Source: Nitrospiraceae bacterium
GTDB lineage: Bacteria; Nitrospirota; Nitrospiria; Nitrospirales; Nitrospiraceae
Length of the DNA: 41,678 bases
Direction of reading: 5' to 3'
NCBI GenBank assembly: GCA_919902665.1
Contig: CAKKRK010000074.1
Location: 1 to 41,678, forward strand
Shown here: positions 25,213 through 36,538 of the stretch, piece after piece
Layout of the letters: each line of letters starts with the position of its first letter
Position numbering within the stretch: the first letter of the stretch is position 1
Made by a program: the position numbers and the translations under genes
The notes under the pieces: model-generated
The model's database searches: none
What the model was told of the DNA's origin: nothing
The model's input: only the letters and a program-made list of their open reading frames with translations

Positions 25213-28200
25213 TTACGCTCTCGCTCCTGCCAAAGTCAGCTCTTCGGGTTCCACTTCATTCGGAGCCGCATGTGGTTCCAGAGGCTGATGCTCTGCGGCG
25301 ATCAGTGAGTAGAACACCGGCACGACGAAGAGCGTGAATACAGTCCCGACGGTCATGCCGGTGACCAACACCATGCCGATACTGTTGCGGGCTGCTGCAC
25401 CGGGACCCGTCGCCAAGACCAGGGGGAGGTGACCGAAGACGGTGGCGGCGGAGGTCATCAGCACCGGCCGTAGTCTCGTCAGTGAGGCCTCGCGCACCGC
25501 CGTCAGCCGAGAATATCCGCGAGCCTGCAGTTGATTGGCGAACTCCACGATGAGGATGCCGTTTTTGGCGATCAATCCCACCAGCGTGATCAGCCCGACC
25601 TGGGAGTAAATATTGATCGTGGTGAGGTCGAGAAAACTCACCACCAGGGCGCCGGACATTGCAAGTGGGACTGAGCCAAGCAAGACGATCAAGGGATCGC
25701 GGAAGCTTTTGAACTGAGCAGCGAGTACCAAATAGATCAGGACCACCGCGAAGCCAAGCGTGACGGTGAGCGCCGCTCCCTCCTGGCGGAGTTGCCGTGA
25801 CTCGCCGGCATAGTCCATGACCACGCGCGGGCCACTTGAGGCTGCTGCGGTTTCAAGCACACGGAGCCCCTCTTCCTTGGTGAAGCCTGGTTTCAGACCT
25901 CCGAAGATGCGGACGGCGTTGCGTTGCTGGAAGCGATTCAATGCGCGCGGCGCAGTGCTTGTTTCGATATGGGTGAATGTCGACACCGGGACCAATTGGC
26001 CGTTCGGTGTCTTGATTTTGAGATCGAGCAGTGGATCAACCGTTGCACGATCCTTGTCGCCGAGTTGAGGAATGACCTTGTAGCTGCGGTCGAAATAGTT
26101 GAACCGGTTGACGTACCCGCCGCCGAGCATGGTGCCCAGCTCACGACCGACTCCGGCCAGGTCGAATCCCAAATCCGCGAGCCGCTCACGATCTAACACG
26201 ACGCGGGCTTGGGGGAGGTCAATTTTAAGGTCGGTGTCCACATACAAGAACTTTCCGCTCTGCCAGCCTGCACCCAGAACGGACCCGACTGCTTCAAGCA
26301 TCTGTTCGGCCGGTGCATCGCTCTGTAAGATTAACTCCACGTCGTACTGACCAGGGGTGGGGAGCGGCGGGTCTAGTCTGGGGAATACACGGAGTCCTGG
26401 CACTTGCGACACGGCACCAAATACGTCGTCGTACATCTCCTCGGTTGAGCGAGCGCGATCGTGCCAATCTTTCGCGACCACGCCGCCGAAGCCTCCCCAT
26501 GCCGTGGTGAGCGACCAGGTGTAGTCCGCCCCAGGGATGGCCGTGATGGCGTTGACGATCCGGAAGTGTTGCCGGTTGGTGGCCTGAACTGTGGAGTCCG
26601 GCGACGCTTCGAAGAAGAGGCTGATGTGGTTCTGATCTTCTACAGGAGCCAACTCCTGACGGGAGAAGTGATAGAGCGGCCAGGCTGCGAGCACGATCAG
26701 GAGTGCGGCCACCACAACTCCCCACCGCATGGTGAGAGTGCCGTCGAGCAGCCTGGCGTAGATCCCTCGCGCTTCTTCGAAGCGTCGGTTGACGAACGCG
26801 GTCAAGCGACCTTCCTTGCCTCGCGGATGGACAAATCGCGAGCTCATCACCGGCGACAGCGTGATCGCGACGACACCAGAGAGCACGACGGCCACGGCCA
26901 GTGTGATCGCAAACTCTAGGAACAAGGAACCGGTCAGCCCGCCTTGGAAGCCGATGGGGGCATAGACAGTCGCGAGCGTGATCGTCATCGCAATGATCGG
27001 GCCCAGCAGCTCCCGTGCAGCGGCTTGCGCGGCCTCGATTCGAGATTGACCCAGGCGCACATGCCGTTCCACGTTCTCAACGACCACGATGGCATCGTCT
27101 ACCACCAGACCGACGGACAGCACGATGGCGAGCAGGGTGAGGAGATTCAGGCTGAATCCGAACGCGGCCATGAAGAGGGCGGTTCCGATCAACGACACCG
27201 GTATGGCCACGAGCGGCACAATGGCCGTACGAACCGATCCCATGAACAGGAACACCACGAGGGCGACGATCAGGATCGTTTCGGATAACGTCTTGGTGAT
27301 TTCCGTCAGCGCATTCCGGATGAACATCGTGCCGTCCCAGACGAGTTTCATGTCGATATCGCTCGGGAGGGTCGGCCGGATCCGTTCGATCTCGTCGCGT
27401 AGCCGGTGCCCGACGTCGATTTCGTTTGCGCCGGGTACCGACCAGATGCCGAGATACACGCCTTCCGTCTCATCGTACTTCGCAATGATCGTGGCTTCTT
27501 CGGCTTCCCGTTCGATCCGCGCAACGTCCTTGAGCCGCACGATGGCCCCGTTCCGATCGGCGACGATCAGCTCCTCAAATTCAGCCGTGGAACGAAGATC
27601 GGTGTTGGCAAGCAGGTTGACCTGGACCTGATTGCCTTTTGTGCGGCCGACCGCCGCCAAATAGTTGTTTCGACGAAGCGCACCCTGGACGTCGCCGGGC
27701 GAGAGGTTGAGGGCCGCGAGTCGGTCAGGGTCGATCCAAATACGCATGGCGACCTGTCGCTCACCTTCGAACGTGACTCGTTGGACGCCGGGTAACGTTG
27801 CGAGCTGGGGTTGTAACGTGCGTAGTAGCCAATCGGTGACGGCGGGGACCGGACGCTCCGTCGAACTGAAACTCAAGTAGAACGACGCGTAAGGTCGATC
27901 GGCTCGCTGGATCTCGATCGCCGATGGCTCGGCTTCCGGAGGCAGTTCCGATCGTACCTGCTGGAGTCGTGCGGTGACCTCTGCCAGTGCTGCCGTACTG
28001 CTGTGGTTTAATTTCAGATGGACGGTCACGGTGCTGACTCCGGCGCGGCTGGTCGATTCGACATAGTCGACGCCGCTGATCGCGGAGACGACCCGTTCGA
28101 TCGGCGTACTGATGAACCCACGAATAGTTTCGGCGCCGGCGCCGTAGTAGAGGGTGGTGATGACGACCAACGAGTTTTCGATCGTGGGGTACTGCTGGAC

Positions 28201-28320
28201 CGGGAGTGATGTCATCGCGCGCCAGCCGGCGAGGAGGATGACCAGGTTGACGACGATGGCCAACACTGGATGTTTGATGAAGACGTCGGTGAACGATGTT
28301 CGGGTCGTGTCTTGCGGCAT
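25213..28320 (-). CDS. RND efflux permease (HAE1-like)
   Basis: The ATG at 28320 gives 1035 residues, the usual length, and begins MPQDTTRTSFTDVFIKHPVL. Twelve helices in two halves with large periplasmic loops are evident. The proton-relay pair is in VGLVVDDAIVVVENVERH (helix 4), and the second half repeats the fold (LIYLVLAAQFKSFRDPLIVL and GLIAKNGILIVEFANQL). It exports small molecules with an MFP adaptor and an outer-membrane channel. The MFP gene ends 10 nt upstream. No outer-membrane factor gene belongs to this operon. Confidence 0.95.
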   Translation of the reverse strand: MPQDTTRTSFTDVFIKHPVLAIVVNLVILLAGWRAMTSLPVQQYPTIENSLVVITTLYYGAGAETIRGFISTPIERVVSAISGVDYVESTSRAGVSTVTVHLKLNHSSTAALAEVTARLQQVRSELPPEAEPSAIEIQRADRPYASFYLSFSSTERPVPAVTDWLLRTLQPQLATLPGVQRVTFEGERQVAMRIWIDPDRLAALNLSPGDVQGALRRNNYLAAVGRTKGNQVQVNLLANTDLRSTAEFEELIVADRNGAIVRLKDVARIEREAEEATIIAKYDETEGVYLGIWSVPGANEIDVGHRLRDEIERIRPTLPSDIDMKLVWDGTMFIRNALTEITKTLSETILIVALVVFLFMGSVRTAIVPLVAIPVSLIGTALFMAAFGFSLNLLTLLAIVLSVGLVVDDAIVVVENVERHVRLGQSRIEAAQAAARELLGPIIAMTITLATVYAPIGFQGGLTGSLFLEFAITLAVAVVLSGVVAITLSPVMSSRFVHPRGKEGRLTAFVNRRFEEARGIYARLLDGTLTMRWGVVVAALLIVLAAWPLYHFSRQELAPVEDQNHISLFFEASPDSTVQATNRQHFRIVNAITAIPGADYTWSLTTAWGGFGGVVAKDWHDRARSTEEMYDDVFGAVSQVPGLRVFPRLDPPLPTPGQYDVELILQSDAPAEQMLEAVGSVLGAGWQSGKFLYVDTDLKIDLPQARVVLDRERLADLGFDLAGVGRELGTMLGGGYVNRFNYFDRSYKVIPQLGDKDRATVDPLLDLKIKTPNGQLVPVSTFTHIETSTAPRALNRFQQRNAVRIFGGLKPGFTKEEGLRVLETAAASSGPRVVMDYAGESRQLRQEGAALTVTLGFAVVLIYLVLAAQFKSFRDPLIVLLGSVPLAMSGALVVSFLDLTTINIYSQVGLITLVGLIAKNGILIVEFANQLQARGYSRLTAVREASLTRLRPVLMTSAATVFGHLPLVLATGPGAAARNSIGMVLVTGMTVGTVFTLFVVPVFYSLIAAEHQPLEPHAAPNEVEPEELTLAGARA

Positions 28321-28330
28321 GATAATCGGT

Positions 28331-29458
28331 TTAGGGGGTCCCGGCCTCGTGATTTTCTTTCGAGTTATTTTCGACAGATTCAGCGACTGCAACGAGGATT
28401 CCGTCACGAAGCTTAAAGGAGCCCACGGCGGCGATGTGCTCGCCTGCCATCAGGCCGGCATGGATGATGATCTCATCGCCGAACATGGGGCCGCTTTCAA
28501 CCTGGCGGGTATGGACTCGGTTGCGGCCATCCTTGTCCGGCGCGATGACGAACACTTGGTCGCCTCCTGGCCCCTTGCGCAACGCACTGACCGGGATGGC
28601 GACGACTGTTCGCTGGGGACCGACCGGAACCCGGACGCGTACCGAAGCTCCTGGTGCCGGGAGATTGCGGGTGCCTTCGATTCTGGCACGGATCATGGCG
28701 TTCCGAGTCGTCGGGTCGACGCGTGCGTCGAGCGCGACAATCTTGGCCACGATAGCGGGAGACTCACTGGCTGCAAGTATCTCGACGGATTCGCCGACCC
28801 GTAATCCGGCCGCGACCTGCTGGGCGACGGCAAAATCCACATGCACAGCCTCGCTCACGCCCTGAAGCGTTGTCAGCAGTGTTCCTTCATCTAAGTACTG
28901 ACCGGGATGGACATCCGCAATGCCCACTTTTACACGGAAGGGGGCGCGGATCGTTTTCTTGGCAATGATGGCTTTCGTCCGGGCGATCTGAGCCTGCGCC
29001 ATATCCAGGTCTGCGCGCGCTCGATCGACTTCTTCTTGAGTGGTCGCGAACTCCTGACTGAGGTTTTGTCGGCGATTGAGGACCGTCTTGGCGAGCGCGA
29101 CCTGGGCCTCTTGTGCCCGAAGTTCAGCTTCTTCGACCGAGACGTCGAGTGCGACCAACAGTGTCCCTGCTTCAACAATGTGTCCAGGAGTGAGCCGGAC
29201 TTCGCGGACAGTTCCTGCCAGTTCGTTCTTCAGCGTAATTGAACGGAGGGCGAGGACCGTTCCGATCGAGGTCGTGGTCTGGCGATGGTCGATCGCTCGT
29301 GCAACGGCGATAGTGACCGATTCCATCGGCTCCGGCTGATTCGCCGAGGCGGCCTGCTCGCTCTGAATGGATTCGTATTTCCACGCGCCCAGACCGATAC
29401 CGATCAGCAGCACAAGCGAAACAAGTAAGACCGACCCGAGCCAATTCTGACGATTCAT
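28331..29458 (-). CDS. RND efflux periplasmic adaptor (MFP)
   Basis: From the ATG at 29458 the protein has about 375 residues. A membrane helix (LGSVLLVSLVLLIGIGLGAW) is followed by the barrel-sandwich halves (TVREVRLTPGHIVEAGTLLV and IRAPFRVKVGIADVHPGQYL) separated by a coiled-coil hairpin, then the beta-barrel region. It links the RND permease to an outer-membrane channel. The gene starts the MFP-RND-methyltransferase operon. An in-frame TTG at 29473 is an alternative start; neither has a strong ribosome site. Confidence 0.92.
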   Translation of the reverse strand: MNRQNWLGSVLLVSLVLLIGIGLGAWKYESIQSEQAASANQPEPMESVTIAVARAIDHRQTTTSIGTVLALRSITLKNELAGTVREVRLTPGHIVEAGTLLVALDVSVEEAELRAQEAQVALAKTVLNRRQNLSQEFATTQEEVDRARADLDMAQAQIARTKAIIAKKTIRAPFRVKVGIADVHPGQYLDEGTLLTTLQGVSEAVHVDFAVAQQVAAGLRVGESVEILAASESPAIVAKIVALDARVDPTTRNAMIRARIEGTRNLPAPGASVRVRVPVGPQRTVVAIPVSALRKGPGGDQVFVIAPDKDGRNRVHTRQVESGPMFGDEIIIHAGLMAGEHIAAVGSFKLRDGILVAVAESVENNSKENHEAGTP

Positions 29459-29473
29459 GAGAAATATGCTCAA

Positions 29474-30192: not shown

Positions 30193-30221
30193 TTGACGCT
30201 ATATATTTGCATATGCAATAT
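30193..30221 (+). promoter_or_regulatory. Promoter of the marR-efflux operon
   Basis: TTGACG (30193-30198) is followed after 17 nt by CAATAT (30216-30221) in a very AT-rich stretch. The operator palindrome lies between and over these elements. Confidence 0.5.
30207..30218. promoter_or_regulatory. MarR operator palindrome
   Basis: TTGCATATGCAA is a perfect 12-bp palindrome placed between the -35 and -10 elements before marR. A near-identical copy occurs before the MFP gene, so the adjacent MarR regulator is the likely ligand. Confidence 0.65.
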
Positions 30222-30250
30222 TATGCTCAATGGGGCTGGAGTATCCGGAA

Positions 30251-30685
30251 ATGAAACAAAACAAAGCTCTTGAACCGATGGGGTATGAGTGTCTGTTGAG
30301 TTGTACACGCTTACTCACTCGTGTTCTCACGGGCATCTACGATAATGAATTACGCGCATTTGGTTTGAAAGCCACACAACTCAATCTCCTGGCGGTTGTG
30401 GCGAGGATCGGACCTGTTCGGCGTATCGACATTGGCAAACGCCTTCACCTCGACCCATCCACGCTGACCCGTAATCTCAAAATAATGCTGACCAATGGTT
30501 GGATTAAGGAAATTACAGATGGAGAAGACGGTCGAGGCTCGCCATTGCAGGTTACGACCAAAGGTCGTGATCTTCTGCATCAAATCGTTCCTTCATGGCA
30601 AAAGGCGCAGGATCGCACCCAACGGCTTATAGGGGATAATGGAGCGACACTTTTGCGAAAGCTTGCGGGAAACATGCATGAGTGA
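30251..30685 (+). CDS. MarR family transcriptional regulator
   Basis: From the ATG at 30251 (GGAG ten bases before it) the protein has 144 residues; an ATG at 30230 would add seven. The winged helix is seen in LKATQLNLLAVVARIGP, RIDIGKRLHLDPSTLTRNL (recognition helix) and a wing with DGEDGRGSPLQVTTKGRDLL. MarR proteins are dimeric repressors released by small aromatic ligands or oxidants. It heads the efflux operon (MFP, RND-OMF fusion) and its probable operator occurs twice, suggesting autoregulation and efflux control. Confidence 0.92.
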   Translation: MKQNKALEPMGYECLLSCTRLLTRVLTGIYDNELRAFGLKATQLNLLAVVARIGPVRRIDIGKRLHLDPSTLTRNLKIMLTNGWIKEITDGEDGRGSPLQVTTKGRDLLHQIVPSWQKAQDRTQRLIGDNGATLLRKLAGNMHE

Positions 30686-30720
30686 GCCTCCGTCAGAGTA
30701 GTATTTTTTTGATTATGTAC

Positions 30721-30740
30721 TTGCATATACAAATATATGC
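30721..30740. promoter_or_regulatory. Second MarR operator-like site
   Basis: TTGCATATACAA (30721-30732) differs from the marR palindrome by one base, and GCATATA/TATATGC (30723-30729 and 30734-30740) forms a further inverted repeat. It lies 35 nt before the MFP ATG. Confidence 0.6.
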
Positions 30741-30774
30741 CATTCGGGCACAAGAAACCGAGAGAGGAGACAAA

Positions 30775-31944
30775 ATGGAAAAACCAAACATGGTGACATG
30801 TTCCCTCGCGGCAGTGCGGGGAAAATTCCTAGCTTGCCTGCTGTTGCCACTCACGATGTTCCTTGGGTGCACCCCTCAAGACAAACCATCCCAGCAGGTC
30901 TCACGGCCCGTGAAGGTCGCCCGAATCGGGGTCGAGGCCGCAGCAGGAATGACGAGTTTCGCAGGGGAAGTGAAGGCGCGGCATGAGACGATCTTATCTT
31001 TCCGTGTAGGCGGCAAGTTGCTGGCGCGCCCCGTCGATGTAGGCGACCGGGTGCGCAAAGGGACCTTACTGGCACGGCTGGACCAGTCCGATTATCGCCT
31101 CGTTGTCAGGAACCTCGAAGCCCAGCACGTATCGGCGATCGCTGATCAGAGTTTCCTAGGGGACGAGCTGACGAGATATCGTGAACTGTTGGCTCAGCGT
31201 GTGATTAGCCCACCAGAGTTCGATCGGCACGAAACTGCTTATATCACAGCGCGGGAACGGGTGGCGGGGCTCGAATCCCAATTAGGCCAAGCATCCAATC
31301 AGCTGGCGTATACGGATTTACTAGCTGACCGGGACGGGGTGGTCACGGCGCTGGAAGTTGAGACAGGGCAAGTCATCAGTGCCGGGCAGGCCATCGCTAA
31401 GCTGGCCCCACTTGACACAAAGGAAATCCATTTTGACATCCCCGAGCACCGGCTACCAGAACTCAAGCGTCAGCAAGAAATCAGTGTGACCCTGTGGGCC
31501 AGCGGCGAGCGGCGATTCAAGGCACGTGTCCGCGAAATCGCCGCCACAGCCGATCCTGCCAGCCGCACGTATCGTGTGAAGGCCACGCTCCTTGATGGTC
31601 AGAAAGCCGCGGAACTCGGTATGACAGCTACGGTATGGATTGCTTCTGATCTACCCGCTCGTATCGCCATTCCCCTCTCTAGTGTGTTTACTACTCAGGA
31701 CGAACCAGGACAGCCGCGCGTGTGGCTGGTGAACGAACAGGCCAGTACGGTTCACTCCGTGCCGGTTCAGATAGGTGAAACGCTGGACGGAGAGCTCACG
31801 GTTGTCTCTGGGCTCGGGTCCGGACAGTTGGTGGTCAGCGCTGGCGTACAGCGCCTCTTGGAGGGACAGGTCGTCAGGGTGCCAGAGGAGATCTTCTCAG
31901 CGGTGCGAGAAAGAGATGAGCGCAGGAGCGTCAGTCATGAGTGA
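30775..31944 (+). CDS. RND efflux adaptor lipoprotein (MFP)
   Basis: The ATG at 30775 with GAGAGGAGA before it gives 389 residues. A lipobox FLGC ends the signal (LACLLLPLTMFLGC). Adaptor motifs follow: LSFRVGGKLLARPVDVGDRVRKG (first lipoyl half), a short coiled coil, and LLADRDGVVTALEVETGQVI (second half), then beta-barrel and membrane-proximal parts. It bridges the RND pump to the outer-membrane channel. It follows marR by 89 nt and overlaps the fusion gene by 8 nt, so expression is coupled. Confidence 0.93.
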   Translation: MEKPNMVTCSLAAVRGKFLACLLLPLTMFLGCTPQDKPSQQVSRPVKVARIGVEAAAGMTSFAGEVKARHETILSFRVGGKLLARPVDVGDRVRKGTLLARLDQSDYRLVVRNLEAQHVSAIADQSFLGDELTRYRELLAQRVISPPEFDRHETAYITARERVAGLESQLGQASNQLAYTDLLADRDGVVTALEVETGQVISAGQAIAKLAPLDTKEIHFDIPEHRLPELKRQQEISVTLWASGERRFKARVREIAATADPASRTYRVKATLLDGQKAAELGMTATVWIASDLPARIAIPLSSVFTTQDEPGQPRVWLVNEQASTVHSVPVQIGETLDGELTVVSGLGSGQLVVSAGVQRLLEGQVVRVPEEIFSAVRERDERRSVSHE

Positions 31945-34900
31945 CTTCAATCTAAGCGAATGGGTTCTCAAACATCGCTCCATCACCGGTTTTCTCATGG
32001 CGCTGGTGATGATAGGCGGGATTTTTGCCTATATCCAGCTGGGACAGCGAGAAGACCCGCCTTACACGTTTCGAGTGATGGTCGTCAAGACAATTTATCC
32101 GGGCGCCACCGCTCTGGAAGTTGAACAGCAAGTGACCGATCGGCTCGAGAAGAAAATCCAAGAGTTGCCCAATCTGGATACGCTACAAAGCTACTCGAAA
32201 CCCGGTGAATCAGTCATTTTTGTGGCACCCCGAGAAGATACTCCGCCCAAAGAGATTCCCGATCTCTGGTATCAAGTGCGCAAAAAGGTCGGTGACATTC
32301 ATATGATGCTGCCACCGGGCATCGTCGGACCCTTCTTCAATGACGAGTTCGGCGATACCTACAGCCTTCTTTATGCCTTTTCCGGGGAAGGCTTCAGCTA
32401 CGCCGAATTGAAAACGACGGTCGATTCGGCGCGTCAGCAAATTCTACGCGTGAAAGATGTCGAGAAAGTCGATCTCATCGGCGTCCAGGACGAAAAGATT
32501 TACGTCGAGTTTTCCGACAAGAAGCTGGCCGAACTGGGTCTGGACCCCGCTGCGGTCGCTCAAGTACTCCAGGCGCAGAATGGCATGGTGCCGGCGGGAA
32601 CGGTATTTTCTTCACAGCGCAATCTCCCCATACGACTCACCGGCCCTTTTGATTCGGTACATAGCATCGCGAATCTTGCCGTGCGTGTCAGTAATCGAAC
32701 CTTCCGCGTCGGCGATTTCGCCAAGGTCTCTCGTGGGTATACCGATCCGCCGGAATTCAGGATGCGCTTCAACGGCAAGAATGTCATTGGTCTTGGGGTT
32801 ACTCTGAACAAAAGAGCCGACATACTGGAAGTAGGCAAGGCCCTTGATACCACCGTGGCGCACATTGAGGGGGAACTCCCTGTCGGCATCGAGGTTGAGC
32901 AGGTTGCCAATCAGTCCCGCGTGGTGAGAACCCAAATGCGGGAGTTTATGACTACCTTTCTCGAGGCACTAGCCGCGGTACTTGCCGTTGGATTCCTCAG
33001 TCTTGGATTCCGCACTGGCACTGTCGTCGCGCTCACCGTGCCCCTGGTTCTGGCTGGCACGTTGCTCTGTATGCTGGTGTGGGGTATCGATCTGCATCGG
33101 ATGTCACTTGGTGCGCTGATCCTTGCGCTGGGACTCTTGGTGGACGACGCTATGATTGCCATCGAAATGATGGCGCGTAAGCTGGAAGAAGGTTGGGATC
33201 GTATGCGGGCCGCGACCCATGCTTATCGGGCCACAGCGATTCCCATGTTGACCGGAACGTTGATCACCATCGCGGGCTTTCTGCCGGTGAGCCTGGCTAA
33301 ATCGCAAGCCGGGGAATATACCCTGACGATTTGTCTGGTGGTGGGTATCTCACTACTACTGTCGTGGATCGGCGCGGTTGCCTTTACACCCTATTTTGGA
33401 TTTCTAATCCTTAGAATGCGATCACCCAGCGGCAAGACCGGCCACGACACATTCAATACGCCTTTCTACAACCGCTTGCGCTTCTGGGTGGATCGTTGCG
33501 TGGAACATCGCACGAAGGTCATCATTAGCACCGCGGCCCTGTTCGGCATCGGTCTTGCCACGCTAACCCAAGTTCCACAACAGTTTTTCCCGCTGTCCAA
33601 TCGGCCGGAAGTCATCGTGGATCTCTGGTTGCCGGAAGGTAGTTCCTTCGCGCAAACCGAAGTGGTTGCCAAGCGCTTAGAGACTCTGCTTGCCAAGGAT
33701 GAGGATGTGGTGAATTACGCGGCTTATATTGGCGGTGGCAGTCCTCGGTTTTTTCTTCTCTTCGTACAACAATTGGCCAACACGAACCTCGCCGAATTCG
33801 TGGTGGTGACTCGTGACAACACGGCCCGTGAACGGGTCATGCAACGACTTCGACTCACCTTCGCTACGGACTTCCCAGAAGTGCGCGGACGCACCATGCG
33901 CCTGAACGTCGGACCGCCGATGGATTATCCGCTCCTGTTCAGGGTGTTCGGTGAAGATCCCAAGATCGTTCGCAGCATCGCCGACCAGGTGGCTGAGGTC
34001 GTGCGCGCCAACCCCAATACGGTGGATGTGAACGACGACTGGCACGATCGCATTCCATCGTTTCGCCTCGTACTCGATCAAGACAAGGCGCGTGCACTCG
34101 GTGTCTCGACCTCAAGCTTGTCGCAAGCCTTGCAAGCTCACTACACGGGAATCTCCGTTGGGCAGTTCCGTGAGGACGACAAGCTCATCGACATCATTTG
34201 GAGAGCGCAAAAGAACTTGCGAGCCGCCGCCAACGAATTACCCGATGTCACTGTTCGGACGGCCAACGGGACACCGGCGTCACTGGCGCAGTTTGTCAAG
34301 TTCGAAACTATCTTCGAGGATGGCGTCCGCTGGCGCCGCAACCGTTTCCCGTCGATTTCCATTCGAGCCGACGTGGTGGACGGCATGATGGCACCCGACG
34401 TGGCAGCTCAGATCATTCCGAAGCTCAAATCCATTGAGCACCATGCCCCGGCCGGCTATTTCATCGAAACCGGCGCCGCCAAGGAAAACGCCTGGATCGC
34501 CCAGAAGTCGATCCTGATCTGGATTCCACTAGTCGTGATCGTCACGCTCATTCTGTTGATGATGCAATTACAAAATCTATCCAGAACTCTCCTGGTTTTT
34601 ATCACGGGACCCCTAGGGGTGATAGGCGCGGCGTTTGCCCTGTTTCTGTTTCAAGCGCCTTTCGGTTTCATGTCCCTATTCGGCATCATCGCCCTACTAG
34701 GCATCATCATGCGCAATTCATTGATCTTAGTGGATCAGATCGTTCAGGACGAAAAGGCTGGCCAGGATGCCTGGACCGCTATCGTGGAATCCACGGTCCG
34801 ACGTTTCCGCCCCATTCTGTTGACTGCAGCAGCTGCGGTGCTTGCCATGATTCCGCTCTCGCGCAACGACTTCTTTGGACCACAGGCCATCGCCATCATG

Positions 34901-36538
34901 GGGGGACTCACGATCGCGACCATACTGACCGTGTTCTTCCTGCCCGCATTGTATGCAGTCTGGTTTCATGTCAAACGGGAGCACTCTCCCGTAGATGCGC
35001 CGCGGGGAGGCTCCAAGGAAGTTCCTTTGCCCAGAGATTCGGTAGCTTTTGATGGAGTTCCCGTGACAATGCGCCAGGTGATTCCGAGCATCGTCATGAT
35101 GATCGTTGTTGTAGGGGGCTGGGGGTGTACACCGACGCGTGTGAGCGATCGGGTACTATTATCGACTCCGACGGAGTGGAATCATGCCCCAGTTGTTCAA
35201 GGCAATTCCCATCAGGCCGATCTCAAAGAATGGTGGCGAGGATTTCACGATCCCCTTCTGAACGAGTTGATCAGCCAGGCATTGGCCGCGAACCACGATC
35301 TCAGAATCGCAACGGCTCGCGTGCGCGAGGCCAACGCGATCATCACTGTCGCGGAGTCAGCACTCTATCCCAGTGTTGATTTCTTTTCCTCGGGCGGCCG
35401 GGAAAAGCGGATTGACCGGATCATCGCAGTACCAGGTAACGAGGGGGTAAAGCTGGTCACACCTACCACGAATGTCATTACCGGTGGTCTTGCTGCACGG
35501 TGGGAGGTAGATGTTTTCGGTGCCAGGCATCTTGAAGCTGAGGCAGCGGGTGCTCAGGCCGCTGGAACCGAAGAGGAGCGGCATGGAGTACAGGTGGGAT
35601 TGCTAGCTCAGGTGGCGACGAACTATCTGGAACTACGCGGCGCACAGGAACGGACTGCGATCCTGCGCGAAAATATCGACATCCAGCGGGAAAGGCTCAG
35701 AACTCTGCAGGCCTTTTATCGTGTGGGTTTAACGAACGATGCCGAGGTCTCTCGTCAGGAAACCTTGCTGCATAGTACTGAGAGTGCCTTTCCGGGATTG
35801 AAGGCAGCAGAGGTCACTCTGATCCATCGCCTCAGCGTGTTGCTGGGCGAATCTCCGGCGAAACTTGAACACCGGCTTATTGCTGCAACAGCTCATCCTT
35901 CCGACCTGCCCGGTATCCCAAACATTTTACCTTCAAGCTTGCTACTACAACGGCCTGATCTGCGCCTCGCGCAAACCGAAGTGAGTGCAGCAGCGGCCAG
36001 CCTTGGTGCAGCGCGGGCCGATTTGTTCCCGAAGGTGGTACTGTCGGCGAGCGGTGGGATCGGCGCACTGGCCATCGGCGGATTTCCGACTCTGGTGGAG
36101 AGTGTGTATGCGCTGGGGGCGGGCCTCACGGCTCCGATATTCAACGCGGGACGCATTCGGGCTCACATCGCTGCCGCAGACGCGCGGCTGGATCAAGTCG
36201 CGGCAAAGTACGAAAAAACCTTCCTCCTCGCCTTGGAAGACGTGGAAAATGCCTTTGTTGCCCATGCCTCGTCGAAGGAGCGCCGCGAACAATTATTGAA
36301 GGCCGAAACAGCAGCAGAGAAAACGTATCGCTCCTCCGAAGCCTTATATCAGAGGGGAGCGAGTGATTATTTATCCGTGCTGGATGCTCAACGCACCAAA
36401 CTTTCAATCAACGACGAGCGTGTCAAAGCTGAAACCGCAGTTCGTGTCTCATTGGTTTCGCTTTCTAGGGCATTTGGTGGTGGTTGGCCCGTGGACAACT
36501 CAGTAAGCCGGGGAAGCGATAATGATTCAGGGAAATAA
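31937..36538 (+). CDS. RND efflux permease fused in frame to an outer-membrane factor
   Basis: A single uninterrupted frame of 1533 residues from the ATG at 31937 (GGAG nine bases before). Residues 1-1015 are a complete RND permease (starts MSDFNLSEWVLKHRSITGF, proton-relay LGLLVDDAMIAIEMMARKLE, second half LLGIIMRNSLILVDQIVQDE, twelfth helix ending FLPALYAVWFHVK). After a 30-residue linker, residues 1045-1533 are a complete NodT-type outer-membrane factor (MRQVIPSIVMMIVVVGGWGC lipoprotein signal, then WWRGFHDPLLNELISQAL, two TolC-like coiled-coil repeats, LLQRPDLRLAQTE). No stop separates them. GGAG at 35054-35057 with GTG at 35063 or ATG at 35069 could also start the channel alone. Signal peptidase II cleavage at the Cys would separate the two parts after export. 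Confidence 0.9.
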   Translation: MSDFNLSEWVLKHRSITGFLMALVMIGGIFAYIQLGQREDPPYTFRVMVVKTIYPGATALEVEQQVTDRLEKKIQELPNLDTLQSYSKPGESVIFVAPREDTPPKEIPDLWYQVRKKVGDIHMMLPPGIVGPFFNDEFGDTYSLLYAFSGEGFSYAELKTTVDSARQQILRVKDVEKVDLIGVQDEKIYVEFSDKKLAELGLDPAAVAQVLQAQNGMVPAGTVFSSQRNLPIRLTGPFDSVHSIANLAVRVSNRTFRVGDFAKVSRGYTDPPEFRMRFNGKNVIGLGVTLNKRADILEVGKALDTTVAHIEGELPVGIEVEQVANQSRVVRTQMREFMTTFLEALAAVLAVGFLSLGFRTGTVVALTVPLVLAGTLLCMLVWGIDLHRMSLGALILALGLLVDDAMIAIEMMARKLEEGWDRMRAATHAYRATAIPMLTGTLITIAGFLPVSLAKSQAGEYTLTICLVVGISLLLSWIGAVAFTPYFGFLILRMRSPSGKTGHDTFNTPFYNRLRFWVDRCVEHRTKVIISTAALFGIGLATLTQVPQQFFPLSNRPEVIVDLWLPEGSSFAQTEVVAKRLETLLAKDEDVVNYAAYIGGGSPRFFLLFVQQLANTNLAEFVVVTRDNTARERVMQRLRLTFATDFPEVRGRTMRLNVGPPMDYPLLFRVFGEDPKIVRSIADQVAEVVRANPNTVDVNDDWHDRIPSFRLVLDQDKARALGVSTSSLSQALQAHYTGISVGQFREDDKLIDIIWRAQKNLRAAANELPDVTVRTANGTPASLAQFVKFETIFEDGVRWRRNRFPSISIRADVVDGMMAPDVAAQIIPKLKSIEHHAPAGYFIETGAAKENAWIAQKSILIWIPLVVIVTLILLMMQLQNLSRTLLVFITGPLGVIGAAFALFLFQAPFGFMSLFGIIALLGIIMRNSLILVDQIVQDEKAGQDAWTAIVESTVRRFRPILLTAAAAVLAMIPLSRNDFFGPQAIAIMGGLTIATILTVFFLPALYAVWFHVKREHSPVDAPRGGSKEVPLPRDSVAFDGVPVTMRQVIPSIVMMIVVVGGWGCTPTRVSDRVLLSTPTEWNHAPVVQGNSHQADLKEWWRGFHDPLLNELISQALAANHDLRIATARVREANAIITVAESALYPSVDFFSSGGREKRIDRIIAVPGNEGVKLVTPTTNVITGGLAARWEVDVFGARHLEAEAAGAQAAGTEEERHGVQVGLLAQVATNYLELRGAQERTAILRENIDIQRERLRTLQAFYRVGLTNDAEVSRQETLLHSTESAFPGLKAAEVTLIHRLSVLLGESPAKLEHRLIAATAHPSDLPGIPNILPSSLLLQRPDLRLAQTEVSAAAASLGAARADLFPKVVLSASGGIGALAIGGFPTLVESVYALGAGLTAPIFNAGRIRAHIAAADARLDQVAAKYEKTFLLALEDVENAFVAHASSKERREQLLKAETAAEKTYRSSEALYQRGASDYLSVLDAQRTKLSINDERVKAETAVRVSLVSLSRAFGGGWPVDNSVSRGSDNDSGK
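35054..35071 (+). promoter_or_regulatory. Possible internal ribosome site for the outer-membrane factor part
   Basis: GGAG at 35054-35057 is followed after five bases by GTG (35063) and then ATG (35069), both in frame with the RND gene and directly before the lipoprotein signal. It could allow independent translation of the channel. Confidence 0.45.

Follow-up and report, generated by a model that had tools for sequence, protein, structure and literature searches.

A continuous RND permease and outer-membrane factor reading frame in Nitrospira with a putative internal processing signal

RND pumps and outer-membrane factors (OMFs) are, as a rule, separate proteins. In a 41,678-nucleotide stretch of Nitrospira DNA (the window, meaning the whole stretch that was analysed), a preliminary description had reported a single 1533-codon frame that encodes both, which raises the question of whether the two genes are truly fused and how a channel encoded behind a permease might be set free.

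The fused reading frame and its operon

The single frame is borne out: it runs uninterrupted from the ATG at 31937 to a stop ending at 36538 on the + strand (31937..36538, 1533 aa, zero internal stops), and both of its domains are matched by profiles. The permease half (residues 1-1010, 31937..34966, +) is covered by Pfam ACR_tran over residues 8-1008 (E 9e-153, 510.8 bits against a cut-off of 28) and is of the MexK/TriC type, its closest relatives among solved structures being MexK (9xwg, ~1052 bits) and TriC (6vej, ~882 bits), with AcrB-like chains at ~190-214 bits. Several NCBIfam RND models also match this half, all below their curated cut-offs (RND_permease_1/2 at 431 and 357 bits, with a cut-off of 1250). 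RND permeases have 12 membrane helices and a cytoplasmic C-terminus, and the permease half, for which a hydropathy profile was computed, would be expected to have the same topology. The channel half (residues 1064-1533, 35126..36535, +) is of the NodT/OprN family: Pfam OEP matches the C-terminal part in two stretches up to residue 1514 (E 1e-43), and TIGR01845 (outer_NodT) matches residues 1078-1516 with 280.6 bits, over its cut-off of 210.05. OprN is the nearest solved structure by sequence and also gives the best PDB matches (5azp, 5azo and 5iuy, TMq 0.63) to an AlphaFold model of this half (mean pLDDT 72.7, pTM 0.68), which is of low confidence over the signal and the first ~50 residues.

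Between the two halves lies a hydrophilic tail of 32 residues (1011-1042, 34967..35062, +), which, from the DNA alignment with split relatives, appears to be the leftover of an RND C-terminal tail that in those relatives ends at a stop. It is followed by a signal-peptide-like segment (residues 1043-1063, 35063..35125, +), which lies within a hydropathy peak at 1041-1066 and corresponds in alignment to the lipoprotein signals at the N-termini of split OMFs. The predicted first residue of the mature OMF is Cys1064 (35126..35128, +), in a CTPTR-type motif common to fused and split relatives; the preliminary description had placed the cysteine at about this position, and it is exactly residue 1064. 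The internal GGAG-GTG/ATG that it had described is likewise present, with a GGAG (35054..35057, +) that is a candidate ribosome-binding site, vestigial or active, and two candidate starts, the GTG of codon 1043 (35063..35065, +) and the ATG of codon 1045 (35069..35071, +).

Upstream on the same strand are a MarR-family regulator, the first gene of the operon (30230..30685, +; Pfam MarR, E 4e-9), and a periplasmic adaptor, or membrane fusion protein (30682..31944, +; TIGR01730 RND_mfp, 238.9 bits, over the cut-off). The MarR stop and the adaptor start overlap as GTGA, and the final 8 nt of the adaptor gene overlap the RND start (ATGAGTGA), so that the operon is tightly packed throughout. Rfam gave no match in the operon, and the RND/OMF junction had no site resembling a promoter or a terminator. 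A 12-bp perfect palindrome (TTGCATATGCAA, 30207-30218) ends 11 bp before the MarR start codon and is a candidate operator. Directly adjoining the fused operon, on the opposite strand, there is a second RND permease (25213-28407, -), with an ORF of adaptor size (28331-29473, -) just upstream of it; in genome G007, too, a further RND gene lies within a few kb of the fused one and on the opposite strand.

Relatives and origin of the fusion

Close relatives that were always split would have spoken against a fusion. Eleven distinct Nitrospira sequences, the window included, have a continuous fused junction with a homologous linker, and the split loci form their sister group and outgroups. Since the ten other sequences come from separate assemblies and have the same junction, the fusion is a property of the clade rather than an assembly error. 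In a survey of 79 genomes of the genus, in which a close homologue was defined by E <= 1e-300, nine were fused and five split, one (G064) had a scaffold gap and the remainder were without a close homologue. The RND tree places the 11 distinct fused sequences in one clade (SH-aLRT 99), with a split Nitrospira clade as its sister (99), and fused and split Nitrospira together lie nested within split loci of Methylococcales and Nitrosomonadaceae. In public genomes, every Methylococcales or Nitrosomonadaceae relative that was found with both halves is split. With split outgroups and all fused sequences in one clade, the fusion is derived and has a single origin. Nitrospira lies within the Methylococcales sequences on this tree, as do members of Nitrosomonas and Nitrosovibrio. 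The phylogeny suggests that the pump may have been transferred horizontally among methane and nitrogen oxidisers.

The junctions point to how the two genes could have merged. In split Nitrospira (...GGGAGGTGTCGCATGAAAGC...) the RND gene ends in GCATGA, with its TGA stop inside the OMF start ATGA; at the same site in the fused clade (...GGAGCGATTGCCGTGACGACG...), the tail upstream is shorter by ~8 nt, and in place of the ATG there is GTG or nothing. The two translationally coupled genes thus came to share a frame in a single event: the 3′ tail of the RND gene would have undergone a small deletion, with a net change not divisible by three, which brought both genes into one frame and removed the stop. 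With sequences this divergent, the individual indels are uncertain; what fuses the genes is the net change of frame.

The tail between the halves is weakly constrained (dN/dS 0.66, bootstrap 0.42-1.04), against a dN/dS of 0.12 in the RND half and 0.14-0.27 in the OMF half over the fused clade, so that selection is seen on both halves. The absence of stops in the tail was rejected as proof of selection, as the tail stays free of stops in 19% of neutral simulations. The case for a functional fusion therefore builds on the internal start that one lineage has lost (see below) and on the conservation of both halves, rather than on the missing stop.

The OMF tree departs from the RND tree at one point. 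L024, whose genome is a single contig, combines the split junction of its sisters with an OMF body of the fused type: from some 50-85 codons inside the gene, it is mostly 84-99% identical to the fused clade and 57-77% identical to the split sisters. The OMF tree accordingly places L024 inside the fused clade, and a topology with one fused clade is rejected (p-AU 0.013) owing to L024, a conflict that we attribute to recombination in this locus. L024 is best read as a natural mosaic in which the channel body has been swapped, the breakpoint falling some 50-85 codons after the OMF start.

Among 246 Nitrospirota and 369 Gammaproteobacteria, surveyed as samples, this RND family showed no further fusion, and in 20 near relatives the frames of more than 1400 codons, among the RND matches listed, hold only orthologues of the fused protein. 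One candidate for a second fusion, in a distant gammaproteobacterium (G442, locus L126) that matched along both halves, proved to be two abutting genes in the same frame with a single TAG directly before the OMF ATG. Long frames in G435, G668 and G306 end after the RND part; in G299 the RND tail stops at once (locus L079), which places the extra length upstream. The one plasmid match inspected (H3, among 40 listed of 4113 matching records) has three separate genes in a different order. In the open-access literature we found no paper on a natural RND-OMF fusion, which does not prove absence.

Release of the channel half and competing explanations

We consider it fairly probable (about 0.62) that the locus encodes a natural fusion of the RND and OMF components of a MexK/TriC-type pump, which is read through and then separated at the internal signal by signal peptidase. 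The ribosome would read through the old gene border, from the RND half straight into the OMF. The permease would insert with its C-terminus in the cytoplasm, as expected from the family topology, and the 32-residue tail would stay inside. The old lipoprotein signal would then serve as membrane segment thirteen and initiate the export of the channel half by Sec, and signal peptidase (II in most members) would cut before the cysteine, freeing a lipidated channel to the outer membrane. Membrane insertion, cleavage, lipidation, release and trimer assembly are steps that we infer from the encoded proteins. To a more far-reaching version we give even odds: motor and channel would be made as one polyprotein, with the central lipoprotein signal as an obligatory processing site that replaced stop-start coupling and became fixed in a Nitrospira lineage.

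The internal signal, the cytoplasmic RND C-terminus and release by signal peptidase, all proposed in the preliminary description, fit the sequence; the part that fits less well is the lipobox of the window, GWGC, which is atypical for signal peptidase II. The fused members have signal-like segments; all ten others pass a strict PS51257-like PROSITE pattern, and the window fails it, a 6-nt insertion having put Trp at -2 with the cysteine motif left intact. This failure is weak evidence, because 16 of 39 split OMFs fail the same pattern. Signal peptidase II itself is represented by two Peptidase_A8 matches over the cut-off in G000, and LspA is also encoded in G041 and G007. In the window, a cut by signal peptidase I after GWG is conceivable.

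A different account would have the channel made mainly by initiation at GTG1043 or ATG1045, with the read-through fusion as a minor or useless by-product of the lost stop. It draws on the GGAG and the 5-nt spacer before the GTG of the window, on a start codon (GTG or ATG) that lies 18-21 codons before the cysteine in 9 of the 11 fused members, the window included, where split relatives start their OMF at the corresponding site, and on the weak constraint on the tail. Against it, L016 and L020/L037 (L016 and L020 being sisters on the RND tree) have lost this start; in L016 and L020 no start lies nearer than the hydrophobic core, except for an ATG at 1019 in L020 that has no clear ribosome site. 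The OMF of L016 and L020/L037 is nevertheless under purifying selection (dN/dS 0.17-0.27), like that of the other members. Since the internal start is gone and the OMF is still selected, the OMF of this lineage very probably comes from the fusion, although ATT, CTG or another rare start codon may serve there. Moreover, without a stop, all ribosomes that finish the RND half should enter the OMF, so that the fusion would be made regardless. We therefore regard internal initiation as the main source of the channel as unlikely. As a supplement it is plausible in the nine members with a start, where it would add free channel to the 1:1 synthesis that the preliminary description proposed, and in the window itself the channel may come through the fusion or through the internal start. 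The presence of a fused-lineage channel body as a separate gene in L024 also fits release of the body from the fusion, and this swap, together with the start loss in L016/L020, favours a polyprotein that would be separated at its internal signal.

The remaining explanations fare worse. The atypical lipobox of the window could be taken to mean that the full-length protein stays uncleaved and works as one chain, with the OMF tethered to the inner membrane; yet the ~34 residues from Cys1064 to the OMF core at 1098 would, on geometric grounds, be too few to span the periplasm, and the good lipoboxes of the ten other members also make this very unlikely. That the OMF half is a decaying remnant, the pump being served by another OMF of the cell, would agree with the several further OEP-family proteins encoded in the Nitrospira genome of the window, and with L039, whose junction is fused but whose OMF half is broken, by sequencing error or decay, at a stop ~110 codons past RND residue 1010. 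The low dN/dS of the OMF over the clade speaks against such decay, as do its invariant core residues and the complete OMF fold, and we hold it to be highly improbable. An artefact of assembly or sequencing in a metagenome bin deserves next to no credence. The window does come from a 240-contig draft, and CG24D/G064 (L040 / L116) has its RND gene at 99-100% nucleotide identity, up to a scaffold gap at RND residue ~854, but an adaptor only ~70% identical. The window RND is 81-85% identical in protein to the rest of the clade, and its OMF mostly 86-93%. The mismatch with CG24D/G064 may reflect recent recombination or a chimera in one of the two bins, and a local chimera of the RND half with its flanks is thus possible; the ten separately assembled junctions with a homologous linker refute an artefact for the clade, and a chimera in one bin would leave the clade-wide fusion unaffected.

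Comparison with known systems

Coupling of neighbouring genes by termination-reinitiation has been described (PMC10666635). In these sister genomes an ATGA-coupled pair is visible both before and after fusion, along with a third state that lacks the start and, in L024, a channel body naturally exchanged between the two arrangements. The locus thereby makes it testable whether continuous translation with signal-peptidase cleavage can substitute for termination-reinitiation, and whether a signal placed behind a protein of 12 helices can still bring about lipidation and sorting to the outer membrane.

Among the closest known counterparts are loci of Methylococcales, Nitrosomonadaceae and the sister Nitrospira clade in which adaptor, RND and OMF are split. 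These are orthologous and have the RND gene followed by the OMF gene, with 68-82% identity in the permease and 52-72% in the OMF (87% in L024), but as separate genes, often overlapping (ATGA or similar), in which each OMF has its own N-terminal signal. The MexJK and TriABC systems of Pseudomonas aeruginosa contribute the nearest solved RND subunits, MexK and TriC (9xwg, 20yy and 6vej). Their RND gene ends separately, and they borrow an OMF encoded elsewhere (OprM/OpmH), whereas the Nitrospira fusion has the OMF in the same frame. OMFs of the OprN/NodT family share profile and fold with the channel half, with the difference that their signal is N-terminal and that of the fusion internal.

Joining of the two components in the order RND-OMF within one chain is known from CzcA/CusA-type RND proteins of Bacteroidota that have a C-terminal OEP domain; belonging to the heavy-metal subfamily and to another phylum, these would be an independent fusion. 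As for the proposed processing, the cytochrome b-c1 polyprotein of Bradyrhizobium (fbcH) joins a polytopic membrane protein to an exported partner and is split at an internal signal peptide. It differs from the RND-OMF fusion in the proteins concerned, and it involves neither a lipoprotein signal nor outer-membrane sorting.
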